Assembly: GCA_021772915.1 (NCBI GenBank)
Contig: JAJFLB010000015.1
Location: 1 to 64,000 of the forward strand
Origin: Gammaproteobacteria bacterium
Lineage (GTDB): Bacteria > Pseudomonadota > Gammaproteobacteria > Xanthomonadales > SZUA-36
Length of the DNA: 64,000 nucleotides
Reading direction: 5' to 3'
Position numbers and translations under genes: made by a program. A model generated the notes under the pieces. That model did no database searches. It was not told where the DNA came from and saw only the letters and a program-made list of their open reading frames with translations. This document shows positions 2,487 to 14,413 of the stretch, piece by piece (the first letter of the stretch is position 1; each line of letters opens with the position of its first letter).

Positions 2487-2912
2487 TCAATCGCAGTTAC
2501 CGGTTCGTTTGCCCTTCCACTCCATCTTGATTTCCATTTGCTGACCGCCCATTTCCATCGCCATGGCGCCGTTACCTGAGATCGAACTGCCGAACGAGGT
2601 GAATTTCCACTGGCCTTGCATCATTGTGCCGGCTCCGGTTGGGCAAAACATTGACCAACTGATCGTATTCCCGCTCTGGACAACATTGGTAATATCACAC
2701 GGGGTGTCCTGGTCCTGATTGAATTTTTCCGGGCTAAGTTCGTCTTCTTCAACGCACTCGGTAGTGGTGTCAACCCGGGGTTGAGGCAGCATGGGCATGG
2801 ATACGGTGGTCGTGAATTCCCATAACCCAGGTTTGATCGGGACACCTTTGGCATTGACACTGGCGGAAAAAAGTGCGGCAAGGATACAAGTCAGAGTTAT
2901 TCGCAGATACAT
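2487..2912 (-). CDS. DUF3617 family exported protein
   Basis: A small exported protein of about 141 residues. It begins with a clear signal peptide (MYLRITLTCILAALFSASVNA). The mature part has the DUF3617 pattern: 'KPGLWEFTTTV' near the start, Cys at TTECVEE, a 'PCDIT' segment, and a C-terminal 'MKMEWKGKRTGNC'-like end with Cys near the terminus. No function is established for this family. I chose the ATG at 2912 over the one at 2936 because AGGAG lies 7 bases upstream of it and it starts exactly at the signal peptide. It stands alone, between the beta-helix gene and the oxidase-like gene, and is transcribed away from the latter. Confidence 0.85.
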   Translation of the reverse strand: MYLRITLTCILAALFSASVNAKGVPIKPGLWEFTTTVSMPMLPQPRVDTTTECVEEDELSPEKFNQDQDTPCDITNVVQSGNTISWSMFCPTGAGTMMQGQWKFTSFGSSISGNGAMAMEMGGQQMEIKMEWKGKRTGNCD

Positions 2913-3053: not shown

Positions 3054-4430
3054 ATGTCAACGATCAAATATGACCTTCCCGTAGGCAGCGGCACGGTAAG
3101 GCGAACCACGTCCGCCTGGCTGATGCTGGGTTTGGCCTCGCTGGTGGGTGCCGGATTGTTTTCGCTATTGCTGGTATTGGCGCGCACCCCGGTGGTACAG
3201 GCGTGGATGCCAATTATTGACTTCTTCCACGTGGCGCTGATCGTACACGTGGATCTGTCGGTACTAATCTGGCTACTGTCGATTGCGGGCGTATTGTGGG
3301 CCTTGAGTACTGACCGCGATTGGCTCGCCTGGGACCGGGTTTCTTTCTGGATGGCAGCATCCGGTACGGCCGTCGTCGTTATCGCACCCTTTGTTGGTGC
3401 CGGCGATCCGTTGATGAATAACTACGTACCGGTGTTGCGCCACCCGGTATTTTTTATCGGCCTGGGGTTGTTTATGGCCGGGGTCCTGTCCCATCTCTTG
3501 CGTTCTGTCCTGAGTTTCACTGGCCTGGGTGTGCAGTTGGACGGATTCGCGGCATTGCGGGTGGGCACAATGCTGGCGGCTGTGACGACTGCGGTGGCGA
3601 TTGGTGCGTTTGTTGCTTCCCTGGCCGGCATTCCAGATGGTGTAGAGGGGCAGGCTTACTTTGAGTTCTTGTTTTGGGGTAGCGGCCATGTCCTGCAGTT
3701 TACCCATACGCTTCTGATGATGGTTGTGTGGGTGGTATTGGCAAGCAGTAGCGGCTGCCGGCTTAATTTGACACCCCGGCTGATGTTGGTGTTGTTTATG
3801 CTCATGGCTCTACCGGTGATAGCCGTGCCATTTATCTACTTTGCACACGAAATAGCTTCTTCCGGTCACCGGCAGGCTTTCACCTTGTTGATGAGGTACG
3901 GTGGCCTGGCCAGCTTGCCCATGGGGTTGGCCGTGGTTGCCGCCTTCTGGAGGGCAACGAAGCCGCAGGGAGAAGGTCGCTACCTGCGTTCTGCACTGGC
4001 GTCCTCAATAGCTCTATTTGCTACCGGGGGGGTACTTGGCTTCATGATCGCCGGATTGGATATAGTCATTCCCGCGCACTATCACGGCTCCACGGTTGGG
4101 GTGACCCTGGCCTTCATGGGCTTAAGCTACTATCTCCTGCCACGCCTGGGTTTTGGTGCCCTGCCACCTCGGTTGGCGTTTTGGCAACCGATCATTTATT
4201 GCAGTGGGCAAATTCTGCACATTTTTGGACTCGTGTGGAGTGGTGGTTATGGCGTGCAGCGCAAGACCGTGGACCTGACTCAGGGTTTCGACCAGCTCAG
4301 CGAAGTTGCGGCCATGGGTCTGATGGGTTTTGGCGGATTGGTCTCGGTGGTTGGCGGATTGTTGTTTCTGGTGGTGGCCTACCGGTCGATTAGTGCAACC
4401 GGTTGTGCCAGCGAACGTCAAAACTCGTGA
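3054..4430 (+). CDS. solitary heme-copper oxidase subunit I-like protein (CcoN/NO-reductase superfamily)
   Basis: A 458-residue polytopic membrane protein with about 12 hydrophobic segments. The haem-copper pattern is visible: His65 in HVDLSVLIW (low-spin haem ligand position), His212 in WGSGHVLQF (CuB position) and His342/His344 in AHYHG (the two haem ligands), with a YYLLPRLG motif that resembles CcoN and NorB. Two features are odd. Where the family has a His-His pair of CuB ligands, this protein has His265-Glu266. The position four residues after His212, tyrosine in A-type oxidases, is Phe216. No subunit II, CcoO or CcoP gene is near. The 3' end overlaps the convergent hemerythrin gene by 41 bases. 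It could be an oxidase-like or NO-reductase-like enzyme; which one is open. Confidence 0.75.
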   Translation: MSTIKYDLPVGSGTVRRTTSAWLMLGLASLVGAGLFSLLLVLARTPVVQAWMPIIDFFHVALIVHVDLSVLIWLLSIAGVLWALSTDRDWLAWDRVSFWMAASGTAVVVIAPFVGAGDPLMNNYVPVLRHPVFFIGLGLFMAGVLSHLLRSVLSFTGLGVQLDGFAALRVGTMLAAVTTAVAIGAFVASLAGIPDGVEGQAYFEFLFWGSGHVLQFTHTLLMMVVWVVLASSSGCRLNLTPRLMLVLFMLMALPVIAVPFIYFAHEIASSGHRQAFTLLMRYGGLASLPMGLAVVAAFWRATKPQGEGRYLRSALASSIALFATGGVLGFMIAGLDIVIPAHYHGSTVGVTLAFMGLSYYLLPRLGFGALPPRLAFWQPIIYCSGQILHIFGLVWSGGYGVQRKTVDLTQGFDQLSEVAAMGLMGFGGLVSVVGGLLFLVVAYRSISATGCASERQNS

Positions 4431-4782
4431 AATGAAGACCGAACCAATCTGAGAGTCTGTCGTGCAGTAACTTCCGGCCGGCTTCAGCATCCTGGGTGAA
4501 ACTGTCACTCAACCCAAGGATTTGCTCCAGCAGGTCTTCGTGATCCGCTTTGTGTTTCTCATACTCCCCATAATCGGTCTCACGCATCAAGTTTTCTTCT
4601 ACCGTGAAGTGGGCTGAGATACCTGCATACATCTCGTCGAATATGGCTTTGACAGTTTCCCTGTCCAGGCGGCCACTGAGTTGCTCATAGAGCACATCTA
4701 TCTGGCCGAGCAACTGCTCGTGTTCAAAATCCTCCTCGGCGTCACCAACAGAGTACTCCGGTTTCCATTCAATCCTGCGCAT
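4390..4782 (-). CDS. bacteriohemerythrin
   Basis: A single-domain hemerythrin (130 residues) that binds a non-haem di-iron centre and so O2 or possibly NO. All seven expected ligands are present: His in EDFEHEQLL, His and Glu in AHFTVEENLM, the two His of EKHKADHEDLL, and His and Asp in LHFTSFDVRW. I used the ATG at 4782 because the family normally begins with 'M-x-x-I-x-W' as here (MRRIEW). The frame stays open upstream to a GTG at 4899, which would add 39 residues with no family match. No strong ribosome binding site decides the case. It is convergent with the oxidase-like gene and divergent from ctaA, suggesting a shared role with oxygen or NO, which is inference. Confidence 0.85.
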   Translation of the reverse strand: MRRIEWKPEYSVGDAEEDFEHEQLLGQIDVLYEQLSGRLDRETVKAIFDEMYAGISAHFTVEENLMRETDYGEYEKHKADHEDLLEQILGLSDSFTQDAEAGRKLLHDRLSDWFGLHFTSFDVRWHNRLH

Positions 4783-5097
4783 ATATTGAGTGTAGTTCAG
4801 AAATTCTGTTTTTGTTAGTCGATTATTCAGCCCCACACTGAATCCAGAAAATGTCTCCCTCAGCCGCAAGGTCAGTTCCTCACTGCGGCCTACCGGCACT
4901 CTGTCAATTTTCGATTCACTATCCGACCCACGTAAACAATGGGTTAATAAAATAGAGTGCTGGATGTAGTCATACTAAGCCGTAAACGAGTATTGAGCCC
5001 GGCTTCCAGTACAATATATCCGTCGTTCCATAATCGTTTTTTGAAAGACACAGTAGCGACGATTGCTTTGGGTCGTACCAGTAACGGGAGTGGTGGC
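4783..5097. other. intergenic region between hemerythrin and ctaA
   Basis: About 315 bases separate the two divergent start codons I chose. It must hold promoters for both genes. I see only a weak sigma-70-like pair for ctaA (TTGAGC 4993-4998, TATATC 5015-5020, 16 bases apart) and no convincing FNR, NorR or NsrR site. Part of it (4783-4899) would be coding if the upstream GTG of the hemerythrin gene were used. Confidence 0.4.
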
Positions 5098-6087
5098 ATG
5101 AGAGCCATGGTTTGGATTTCATTATTGTTGGTCATTGTACTGGTGTCCCTCAGCGCCTATCTTCGCTTGTCTCATTCTGGTATCGGCTGTGCGGACTGGC
5201 CGGATTGTTATGGGCAGATTGGTGAACCGACAACCATAGGGCAGACCATTTCCACGGAAAATGCTTATCAACGAATTGTTGCCGAGGCCGAACAGCCTCT
5301 TGCCTGGGCAACGCCGCTACACCGGCTTGTTGCCAGCGTCCTTGGATTACTGGTCGTGTTCCTCGTGGTGCTTGCGTTTAAGAGCAAGCAGCGCAGATTT
5401 ATTTCATCGTCATTACTGGGGGTAACGGTTTTTCTGGCCTTGCTGGGTCTTAAGTCAGGCAGTCTGCATAGCCCGGCCGTGATCATGGGTAATCTTGGGG
5501 GTGGCTTTTTGATGCTGGGTTTGCTGGGCTGGCTGGTGTTTCGTGCTGGCGATCGCACAAACGACGTGGGAAAGAGGCAAGGGCGGGTCGCATTGCCAGC
5601 AAGGACCCTGGTAATCGTGGTTTTCTTATTGGTGGCACAAATACTGACAGGTGGATTAACCAGCGCCAATTTTGCGGCCAGGTCCTGCCAGACCTTGCCA
5701 ACCTGTAACGGTATTTGGCTACCGGGCGCCGACATCTGGAAGGCAATGGATTTGTCCAGGGATCAGCAGGTTACCGTGGAGGGTAATGCAGTAGGTGGTC
5801 AGGAACGGATCGACATCCATATTTTGCACCGCCTCGGGGCACTAGTGACAACGGTTTTGGTTCTGGTGGTGGGTTTTCTGGCCTGGCGAATGGGCGGACA
5901 ACTACGCACGGCAGGCGCCGCAGTGGTGCTGTTGGTGATACTGGAATTCATGCTGGGGATTGGTGCCATCCTGTTTGATCTGCCGATTGGTCTGGCGGTA
6001 GCGCACAATTGGCTTGCCGGTTTATTGCTCTTGGGTCTGTTGAATATCATGGCCCGAAACCGGGTCGCCCTACCAGTGGAAGACTGA
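5098..6087 (+). CDS. ctaA: CtaA/COX15-type heme A synthase homologue
   Basis: A membrane protein of 329 residues with eight hydrophobic segments in two similar halves, as in heme A synthase, which oxidises the C8 methyl of haem O. Each half has the expected Cys pair (CADWPDC, CQTLPTC) and His ligands (HR in TPLHRLVAS, LHSPAV, HRLGAL, AHNW). One deviation stands out. The first extracytoplasmic loop normally carries E-x-x-H-R; here the residue three before the His is Thr (TPLHR). The start at 5098 has GGGAG about 8 bases upstream; longer in-frame starts add no family sequence. No genes for aa3-type subunits II/III, CtaB or CtaG are near, so its product may serve the neighbouring oxidase-like protein. 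Confidence 0.85.
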   Translation: MRAMVWISLLLVIVLVSLSAYLRLSHSGIGCADWPDCYGQIGEPTTIGQTISTENAYQRIVAEAEQPLAWATPLHRLVASVLGLLVVFLVVLAFKSKQRRFISSSLLGVTVFLALLGLKSGSLHSPAVIMGNLGGGFLMLGLLGWLVFRAGDRTNDVGKRQGRVALPARTLVIVVFLLVAQILTGGLTSANFAARSCQTLPTCNGIWLPGADIWKAMDLSRDQQVTVEGNAVGGQERIDIHILHRLGALVTTVLVLVVGFLAWRMGGQLRTAGAAVVLLVILEFMLGIGAILFDLPIGLAVAHNWLAGLLLLGLLNIMARNRVALPVED

Positions 6088-6139: not shown

Positions 6140-8392
6140 TCAATCCTCGGCGACTTCGATCCTCGTAACCCGCTGAAAACCGCGAGGCAATTTGTGTCCG
6201 CGTTTGGCACGTTCACCCCTGAAATGCTCCAGATCTTTCTTGCCGATACGCATGTAGCGTTGTCCGGCCCAGACCAGGACCTCGTCACTTTCAGAAATAA
6301 CTGCCAACCCCACCATATGTTCTTCGCCCGATTTGAGGCGTTTGGGCGGGATATTGATGAGCTTGTTGCCTTTGCCCTTGGACAAGGCAGGTAACATCTC
6401 AAGCGGGAAGGCCAGCAAATAGCCATCTGAAGTCACGCAGACCACCGTATCTGCTGTCGCACTGGATATAACCGCTGGTTCTACGGGGCTGGAATCGCCC
6501 GGCAGTGAAAGCATGGCCTTACCGGCTTTCATCCGGCTGTGCAGATTGCCTGTCTCGGTCACGAAACCGTAACCAAATGAACTGGCCAGCACCAGTTTCT
6601 GTTGCGCATCACCGGCAATGACATACTGGAAGTACCCACCTTCAGGCAGGGTGAAGCGACTGGTCAGTGGTTCTCCGAGGCTGCGTGCTGACGGCAAGGT
6701 ATGTGCGGTTAATGCATAGGCCCGACCGCTTGAGTCCAGGAACACGGTTTGCTGGTTGCTGCGGCCCCTGGCCGCGTGCTGGTATTCGTCACCGGCCTTG
6801 TAGTTTAACGTCGTCGCGTCGATCTCGTGGCCTTTGGCTGCCCTGACCCAGCCAGATTTGGACAGCACGATGGTGCACGGCTCTGAAGGAATAAGATCCT
6901 CTTCTTTGAGCGCCCGGGCGGCTTCACGACTGGTCAGCCGCGAGCGTCTGGCATCACCGTACTTCTCGGCGTCGGCCGTCAACTCGTTTTTAACCAGTGT
7001 TTTCAAACGTTGCTTTGAGCCCAGCGTGATTTCAATTTTCTTGCGTTCTTCTTCAAGTTCTTCCTGTTCAGCACGAATTTTTGTCTCCTCGAGCCTGGCG
7101 AGGTTGCGCAACTTCAGATCCAGAACGGCTTCGGCCTGGGTGCCGGTAATTTCGAAATGGCTCATCAGTACCGGCTTTGGCTTGTCTTCAGTCCGGATGA
7201 TGTGAATGACCTCGTCGATGTTCAGAAAAGCAATCAGCAGACCGGTGAGAATATGCAGACGGTCAACCACCTGGTCCAGACGGTACTCCAGACGGCGGGT
7301 GACGGTGTCGAGTCTGAATTTCAGCCATTGTTTTAGCAAACTGCGTAAATCCAACAGCTGTGGCTTGCCATTGTTACCAATGATGTTCAGATTGACGCGG
7401 TAGTTATGCTCCAGGTCTGTCGTCGCGAACAAATGATTGAGTAATTGCTCGACATCCACCCGGTTTGAGCGTGGCACAATGACCAACCGGGTTGGGTTCT
7501 CGTGGTCGGATTCGTCCCGCAAGTCCTCGACCATGGGCAGTTTCTTGGCCTGCATTTGCTGGGCAATCTGTTCGAGCACCTTGGCGGGTGAGACCTGGTG
7601 GGGTAGTGCGGTGACCACGATGTCGCCATTTTCTTCTTCCCATACCGCGCGCATTTTGACCGAGCCATAACCCGTCTCGTACATCTTCAGTAGCTCTTCC
7701 GGGGACGTGATGATCTCGGCATCGGTTGGGAAATCCGGGGCCTTGATATGCTCGCATAGATCGCTCACCGTTGCCTTGGGTTCTTCCAGCAGACGCAGGC
7801 AGGCCGTGACGACTTCTCGTAGGTTATGCGGCGGAATATTGGTGGCCATGCCAACTGCAATACCGGCGCTGCCGTTAAGAAGAATGTTTGGCAAACGTGC
7901 CGGCAACAGTTCGGGCTCTTTTAACGTGCCGTCGAAATTGGGTGCCCACTCGACGGTGCCCATGGCCAGTTCGGTCAACAGCGTTTTTGCGTAAGGGGAC
8001 ATGCGTGATTCGGTGTAACGCATGGCTGCAAATGATTTTGGATCATCGGGTGAACCAAAGTTACCTTGTCCGTCGATCAGGGGGTAGCGGTACGAAAATG
8101 GCTGCGCCATTAAGACCATGGCCTCGTAGCAGGCCGAGTCACCGTGTGGATGGAATTTACCCAGTACATCACCGACCGTACGGGCAGATTTCTTGTGCTT
8201 GGATGTCGCGCTCAGACCCAACTCGCTCATCGCATATATGATGCGTCTTTGTACCGGTTTGAGACCGTCACCTATATGTGGCAGGGCCCGGTCCAGCACA
8301 ACGTACATGGAATAATCCAGGTAGGCCTTTTCGGCATACTCCCGTAAGGGGACTTGTTCGTGTTCGGTGAAACTTTGTGTGATTTCGCTCAT
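6140..8392 (-). CDS. parC: DNA topoisomerase IV subunit A
   Basis: ParC (750 residues) is the DNA cleaving and rejoining subunit of topoisomerase IV, which unlinks daughter chromosomes. The catalytic tyrosine is Tyr126 in AAMRYTESR. The winged-helix region has [12 protein letters not shown] with Ser86 and Glu90, the residues expected in quinolone-susceptible enzymes. The C-terminal part is the beta-pinwheel. Length matches the family. The gene follows parE on the same strand with about 120 bases between them, filled by a REP pair, and is convergent with ctaA. Confidence 0.96.
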
Positions 8393-8439
8393 GTCATTGT
8401 GTCAGCTTGTTGATACGGGTTATGTGTTGATGCTCCCAT

Positions 8440-8506
8440 GTAGGAGTGACGAGGTTACTCGTCGCGAACATCATCAATTCCCGACGAGCGAGCTCGTCGG
8501 TCCTAC
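8440..8506. repeat. REP palindrome pair 2 (parE-parC gap)
   Basis: A plus copy (8440-8470, GTAGGAGTGACGAGG then ACTCGTCGCGAAC, degenerate) and a minus copy (8476-8506, GTAGGACCGACGAGC then GCTCGTCGGGAAT) face each other. The minus copy starts five bases after the parE stop codon. Same family as at 26-101. The hairpins lie in the parE-parC transcript and could affect message stability or relative expression; that is inference. Confidence 0.75.
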
Positions 8507-8511
8507 ATTTG

Positions 8512-14413
<5,902 letters not shown>

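Follow-up and report, generated by a model that had tools for sequence, protein, structure and literature searches.

The haem-copper oxidase superfamily takes in the A-, B- (ba3) and C-type (cbb3, CcoN) oxygen reductases and nitric oxide (NO) reductases of the NorB kind (cNOR/qNOR) and of the eNOR kind; Table A4 of PMC8756737 gives Gln at the place of the active-site Tyr as the mark of eNOR, and Asn there as the mark of sNOR. According to a 2022 review (PMC9145763), the way in which haem A enters oxidase subunit I is unknown, and for CtaA, the haem A synthase, a type 1.1 variant "E57K and H123N" has been tabulated (PMC8239418, Table 1). Here we compare these systems with a locus in a gammaproteobacterial genome (assembly GCA_021772915.1, contig JAJFLB010000015.1, positions 1 to 64,000; this whole 64-kb stretch is called the window). 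Within its first ~6 kb are genes for a 458-aa (amino acid) homologue of oxidase subunit I, a bacteriohemerythrin and a CtaA homologue, all three confirmed by profile matches (COX1, NF033749 and PF02628). A first-pass annotation had read them as an unusual oxidase or NO-handling enzyme with its own modified haem. We find instead that the 458-aa protein belongs to a distinct family, here the 458 family, that lacks the histidine pair of the copper site CuB, and that its probable role, judging from its residues and gene neighbours, is to assist other proteins and not to act as an oxidase or NO reductase. The gene and its diagnostic residues, with counts over 82 family members, are:

3054..4430, plus strand: CuB-less haem-copper-oxidase subunit-I homologue (458 family), 458 aa; Pfam COX1 (PF00115), 49.3 bits against a cut-off of 34.8
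3246..3248, plus strand: His65, place of a low-spin haem ligand (helix II); His in 80/82, aligned with the His of the other groups
3687..3701, plus strand: His212 (one CuB-type His, 82/82), Gln215 (82/82) and Phe216 (place of the cross-linked Tyr; Phe in 73/82)
3834..3839, plus strand: Ile261-Tyr262, which occupy the columns of the missing CuB His-His pair in each of four MAFFT modes (43 proteins)
3846..3851, plus strand: His265-Glu266, the pair named in the first-pass annotation; not conserved (His in 28/82, Asp or Glu in 43/82)
4077..4085, plus strand: His342-Tyr-His344 (helix X), at the positions of the high-spin and the low-spin haem ligand; both His in 82/82
4260..4265, plus strand: Arg403-Lys404, 81/82 each, at the place where A-type, B-type and eNOR-like rows have Arg-Arg

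Residues were compared in an alignment of 43 proteins (18 of the 458 family, seven eNOR-like, six B-type, four A-type, five C-type and three NorB), made in four MAFFT modes, and then counted over 82 family members numbered by the window protein. That larger set began with 56 proteins, of which 54 passed a length limit of 370 residues; 35 further candidates brought it to 83 rows without overlaps, and removal of an eNOR-like row (L216_5) left 82. A fragment (L022) and a split gene (L062) were left out before alignment, and loci L051–L055, which repeat genes already counted as L003, L018, L005, L004 and L017, were dropped. The gene at L062, in genome G020, is interrupted by an in-frame TGA, which marks either a broken copy or an assembly error.

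The histidines at 65, 212, 342 and 344 and the Phe at 216 are where the first-pass annotation put them, and they align with the expected columns. At the CuB pair columns all 25 rows from outside the family have His-His, and the window protein has Ile261-Tyr262, not the His265-Glu266 that had been proposed for this place; no alignment that we made sets His265-Glu266 there, the other outcomes being Pro259-Phe260 in one alignment and His272-Arg273 by hhalign. None of the 82 members has an aligned His-His pair, so a conventional pair displaced by a gap could be rejected. Position 262 is Tyr in 49/82 and His in 12/82. Those twelve, with a half-kept CuB pair, all come from phylum-survey loci and lie within one 13-member branch of the family tree. 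Adjacent histidines do occur in the CuB stretch of two rows (L127 and L194_1), about ten residues downstream of the pair columns. The acidic residue at 266 proved not to be conserved; His272 is present in 46/82, and 19/82 have no His at all between 250 and 276. Tyr occupies position 216 in just 3/82.

The window protein thus has one of the three CuB His ligands of a catalytic O2 reductase, and Phe in place of the cross-linked helix-VI Tyr of the A and B oxidases. Its kinship with the superfamily is plain from COX1 homology and from the low-spin and high-spin haem His positions, and a hydropathy scan bearing on the 12-helix fold gave 10 clear segments. As judged from the alignments, the set of 82 as a whole retains the positions of the haem ligands and has lost the copper pair. 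With the copper site lost, reduction of O2 or NO by the usual mechanism would not be expected. Because the pair is missing family-wide and the "Glu" is unconserved, the suggested active site of NO-reductase type, with an acidic ligand gained, is not what we find here; the NO-reductase-type signature, Gln for the cross-linked Tyr with His-His kept, belongs to a 570-aa protein of relatives of the window genome.

In a tree of the 43 proteins (IQ-TREE, LG+C20 with posterior mean site frequencies, no outgroup), the 458 family forms a single group (support 100/100) on a long stem (2.16). A branch with support 100/99 separates it and the eNOR-like proteins from the A, B, C and NorB proteins. One row (L144) was flagged for its long branch and six rows, four of them from the 458 family, for unusual composition, and the joining of C with NorB was flagged as a meeting of long branches. 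The separate grouping agrees with the earlier view of an unusual superfamily member outside ordinary CcoN, and it rules out placement within CcoN or NorB; for NorB the absent His-His pair does so too. Alignment of the two family profiles by hhalign gave a probability of 99.6% over 411 columns.

The eNOR subunit I, itself related to the B-type oxidases, is the closest in kind: it is the nearest tree group, has in common with the 458 family the Gln at H+3 and the haem-ligand positions, and is often encoded in the same gene cluster. The eNOR-like proteins, however, have all three CuB His and Gln at H+4, whereas the 458 family lacks His-His, mostly has Phe at H+4 and is ~110 residues shorter; the window protein, with Phe and no His-His, accordingly does not carry the eNOR signature. 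With the A-, B- and C-type oxygen reductases and NorB the family has in common Pfam COX1 kinship, haem-ligand positions and the helix-VI His, but it differs from them in the missing CuB His-His and in its separate tree group. Searches of PDB sequences with the window protein or with profile A1 (the latter at E 0.01) gave no match. In a plasmid collection 26 records matched, and among the 20 matches listed identities were 25–27%, with annotation as ba3- or cbb3-type subunit I or none. Our searches of the open-licence literature of PubMed Central brought up no description of a CuB-less oxidase homologue; among the papers listed is an oxidase classifier (PMC3084760) in which the term "subunit I-like" occurs twice. 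COX1-family matches such as these can be miscounted as oxidases or NO reductases.

The family was surveyed in 274 genomes of the class, with cuts of >200 bits for the 458 family and >340 bits for eNOR-like proteins. It occurs in 30 of these genomes; at E 1e-10 there are 35, the extra five matching weakly, through their eNOR-like protein. The eNOR-like protein occurs in 23 (25 at a looser limit). Both were found in 18 genomes, the 458 family only in 12, the eNOR-like protein only in five and neither in 239 (Fisher p 3.5e-16, uncorrected for kinship). A phylum sample had the family in 58/398 genomes at E 1e-20. Of the loci, 21 are in named metagenome-assembled genomes, labelled Gammaproteobacteria, Woeseiaceae, Lysobacterales, Oceanospirillales and Proteobacteria, with one Gemmatimonadales that is possibly a binning error or a transfer.

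Gene contexts were fetched for 29 of the 30 family-bearing class genomes (G273 was left out) and for 18 of the 57 matching phylum genomes other than G000. A structural oxidase-type gene or a haem/cytochrome-assembly gene lies within 8 kb (profile hidden Markov model (HMM) score of at least 30) in 24/29 class and 16/18 phylum genomes, and a CtaA/CtaB-type gene, at the same distance and score, in 18/29 and 11/18. In keeping with the first-pass annotation, relatives have an NO-reductase-type cluster and a modified CtaA nearby. Three kinds of setting recur. In the first, a 458 gene stands downstream of eNOR-like genes on the same strand (L117, L118, L120, L121, L122, L124, L058 and L059). In the second, it is part of an aa3 cluster: CtaD-CtaG-CoxC-SURF1-CtaB-458 in L110/L148, SCO-CtaA-458-CtaB-SURF1-CoxC-CtaG-CtaD in L114/L149 and RpoH-CtaA-458-CtaB-SURF1-CoxC-CtaG-CtaD in L140; L144 has a second A-type arrangement, SenC-CoxB-CtaD-458-like. 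In the third, a branch with a C-terminal TPR domain (L208:4242-6167, L209:1997-3919, L210, L211, L212, L221 and L222) has CcsA as the next gene in 6/7 loci; these six also have ResB, which in L212 is ~2.5 kb more distant, and five of them have a multihaem cytochrome. At L115, a class-survey locus, the neighbours of an unfused member are ResB, CcsA, a multihaem cytochrome and a gene for a free-standing TPR protein.

Context labels could be given to 68 of the 82 members in a FastTree phylogeny of the family: eNOR for 30, aa3 for eight, CtaA/CtaB/SCO only for 11, Ccs for seven and none for 12, some of the last being short contigs (L135 has 3.7 kb). The Ccs-linked members form one branch together with L222 (0.977), and the eNOR and aa3 contexts are interspersed, which suggests repeated change of partner.

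The remaining features of the window locus are:

2487..2909, minus strand: DUF3617 protein, conserved flank (Pfam, 65.8 bits); adjoins the 458-family gene in L003, L004 and L005
4390..4782, minus strand: bacteriohemerythrin, 130 aa (NF033749, 88.7 bits against a cut-off of 84)
4783..5097, no strand: presumed deletion scar (gene order in L051, L052 and L053 against the window); same-genus relatives have the eNOR-like operon here, along with a gene for an Lcl_C-domain protein
5098..6087, plus strand: CtaA paralogue (COX15-CtaA), 329 aa (PF02628, 152.5 bits), in which the loop Glu is Thr72, a conserved His is Asn132 and both Cys pairs are kept
6140..8392, minus strand: parC, a conserved neighbour beyond CtaA (cluster c26 in L051 and L053)

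The hemerythrin and 458 genes overlap at their 3' ends. In relatives the hemerythrin gene belongs to the eNOR-like operon. The hemerythrin is diverged, at 41–53% identity to four relatives, and what we take to be its ligand pattern can be seen by eye in their alignment. The first-pass annotation had called the oxidase homologue solitary, and at E 1e-6 the 64-kb window indeed has no match to further oxidase or assembly genes of the HMM set, subunit II included. That description holds for this genome; three same-genus genomes (G004, G005 and G007) have an eNOR-like operon between hemerythrin and CtaA. It encodes cytochrome b/4Fe-4S/FlpD-like, SCO/SenC, 570-aa COX1, CoxB-like and Lcl_C-domain proteins (domains as read on the G004 copies), with an extra open reading frame (ORF) of 1084 aa between the COX1 and SCO genes in G005. 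The order and strands of DUF3617, 458, hemerythrin, CtaA, parC and parE are equal in the window, G004 and G007, the latter two having one additional small gene between CtaA and parC. In this genus the 458 gene is convergent with the eNOR-like operon.

The closest PDB sequences to the 570-aa protein are ba3 oxidases; it keeps His-His and has Gln at the ba3 Tyr place. By this active-site signature, as set out in Table A4 of PMC8756737, we call it eNOR-like. The CoxB-CoxA-SenC order had made sNOR a candidate, set aside since the Tyr place holds Gln and not Asn.

The cytochrome b6-type domain fused to a 4Fe-4S and FlpD-like domain (L051:12399-14465 and homologues) is split into two genes in other lineages, and may represent an unusual electron entry. 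Two plasmids also carry eNOR-like genes. L068 (Defluviimonas plasmid NZ_CP156080.1) has an operon of a 184-aa subunit II-like protein, COX1, cyoE, SCO, cytochrome b and hemerythrin; the 15.7 kb read there include no gene of the 458 family. L069 (a Thermus plasmid) has at 6462-9403 an eNOR-like pair, in which a motif scan of the eNOR-like copy found no H-x-H, followed by Rrf2 and DUF542 genes and with a cytochrome P460 gene upstream, presumably an NO-stress setting.

The window genome (4.68 Mb, 98% complete) gave no eNOR-like match and no ccoN match. It has one further COX1 place, whose protein groups with the A-type oxidases and adjoins CoxB- and CoxC-like genes. The operon is also absent from G006, of the same genus, where the 458 gene is present. 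We infer that the window trio is a remnant and that an operon once present here has been lost; alternatively, mis-assembly of the window contig may account for the gap. The ratio of nonsynonymous to synonymous substitution (dN/dS) for the window 458 gene is 0.067–0.084 against four genus relatives, with synonymous sites near saturation, and 0.067–0.088 against G004, G005, G007, G006 and G014, dS being again near saturation. Among G004, G005 and G007 it is 0.053–0.057, and over the computable operon-bearing pairs 0.053–0.096. By this rough test the window gene is not decaying.

Both Cys pairs of the CtaA paralogue and the Thr in place of its loop Glu are as first annotated; the statement that all His ligands are kept was mistaken, with Asn at 132. 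The paralogue therefore departs at two positions from the Glu and four conserved His of haem A synthases. In a comparison of 33 CtaA rows, the Glu of E-x-x-H-R is replaced in 18 (by Thr, Ala, Gly or Arg), and in exactly these 18 the fourth-helix His is Asn; 15 rows retain both residues. The rows are not independent, since ten of the 18 are from genomes of the window's own family. The modified CtaA lies beside a Glu-keeping COX15-type CtaA in four loci (L117, L120, L123 and L137). A second CtaA of the window genome keeps both Glu and fourth-helix His, and since the paralogue lacks both, a modified haem belonging to this locus, as had been proposed, seems unlikely. The paralogue resembles an already known variant, the E57K and H123N entry for type 1.1 in Table 1 of PMC8239418: both Cys pairs are present and the same two residues are gone. 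It differs from that entry in having Thr (Ala, Gly or Arg in others) rather than Lys, and in being sited near the 458 family.

Because haem residues are kept, the copper site is lost and the genes so often lie beside those that build oxidases or cytochromes, we tentatively favour, with a confidence that stops a little short of even, a CuB-less pseudo-oxidase that handles haem during assembly of client membrane haem proteins. The 458-aa membrane protein would accept, hold or redox-poise haem B, O or A in the membrane, its clients being eNOR-like enzymes, aa3 oxidases and, in the TPR-fused branch, cytochromes c made by CcsBA. With the operon missing, the client in the window genome would be the aa3-type subunit I, the sole other COX1-family protein found there. 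Haem handling is preferred because it accounts for the eNOR-like, aa3 and CcsBA contexts together. The family's neighbourhoods are those of the assembly factors SURF1, CtaG, SCO and CcsBA, none of which is known to be an oxidase homologue. TPR repeats beside cytochrome c assembly genes are familiar from the CcmI/CcmH-type chaperones of cytochrome c maturation; in the 458 branch, by contrast, they are fused to an oxidase-like protein and sit with system II (CcsBA). A bolder version, which we hold to be doubtful, is that one superfamily branch gave up catalysis to become a haem carrier or insertase, passing haem from CtaB/CtaA or the CcsBA path to apo-oxidases, eNOR-like enzymes and apocytochromes, with a CtaA paralogue that likewise lacks catalytic residues as its partner. 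A CuB-less subunit-I homologue often encoded near CtaA, CtaB, SCO, SURF1 or CcsBA is a concrete candidate for the haem A insertion question.

Several observations weigh against haem handling. The argument for it is drawn from gene neighbourhood, which is no proof of function. The family is missing from 340/398 phylum genomes and so is not something that aa3 or CcsBA systems require in general; nor is a 458-family copy seen at the RpoH-CtaB-CtaA locus of the window genome itself. No oxidase-type or assembly neighbour was found within the limits above in 5/29 class and 2/18 phylum genomes, and the phylum contexts were in part hand-picked, long open frames being one criterion, which means that they do not represent a random sample. 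The dozen His262 members keep a His at the second CuB position, and hhalign sets His272 opposite the first CuB His. Deep branches of the 82-member tree are weak (0.16–0.18). Finally, the same-strand operons (e.g. L058 and L118) fit a structural subunit equally well; in eNOR-like operons the 458 protein could be just that, and where it is clustered with multihaem cytochromes its role may be electron transfer.

The strongest competitor, possible though on balance doubtful, generalizes that last point: the protein would be an extra non-catalytic structural or electron-entry subunit (e.g. quinol:haem) of eNOR-like and other respiratory complexes, retained as a stand-alone di-haem redox protein. 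The eight loci with a 458 gene downstream on the operon strand, the conserved haem-ligand positions and the multihaem cytochrome genes beside the TPR-fused branch would all suit it. It explains the eNOR-like and multihaem contexts and is harder to square with aa3 clusters whose subunit set is complete, L110/L148 and L114/L149 already including CoxB-like, CtaD and CoxC. Moreover, the two partners part company in both directions, with 5/23 eNOR-like genomes lacking the 458 gene and 12/30 family genomes lacking eNOR-like genes, and the operon already has in its cytochrome b/4Fe-4S protein a candidate for electron entry.

We consider it unlikely that the protein is a haem sensor or scavenger that binds O2, NO or CO and acts with hemerythrin in NO or O2 stress. 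A high-spin ligand position kept after loss of the CuB pair might leave an open distal pocket, and hemerythrin and an NO-reductase-type operon are nearby in relatives; but Pfam scans of the members tested give COX1 alone (COX1 and TPR for the fused member), the neighbours listed for the aa3-linked members of G068, G125, G153, G271, G290 and G317 include no hemerythrin, and the aa3, CtaA/CtaB and CcsBA contexts would go unexplained.

Less likely still is the enzyme first proposed, an atypical oxidase or NO reductase whose non-haem metal site is of the His/Glu kind. His265-Asp/Glu266 and His272 do occur in the window's close relatives, the helix-VI His is kept and the hhalign pairing of His272 can be read in its favour; against this, residues 265-266 fall off the CuB pair in every alignment made, the candidate ligands vary across the family to the point that some members have no His in 250–276, and the window has no subunit II match.

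That the gene is a decaying, functionless relic of the lost operon, as the missing operon and the diverged hemerythrin might hint, is the least probable of all, given its open frame, a dN/dS within the operon-bearing range (with dS near saturation) and the presence of the family without eNOR-like genes in those 12 class genomes.

Two further observations have no part in the argument. The window genome has 24 cytochrome c domain places. Close to the contig end, an ORF of 713 aa runs on the minus strand at 127-2268 of the window.

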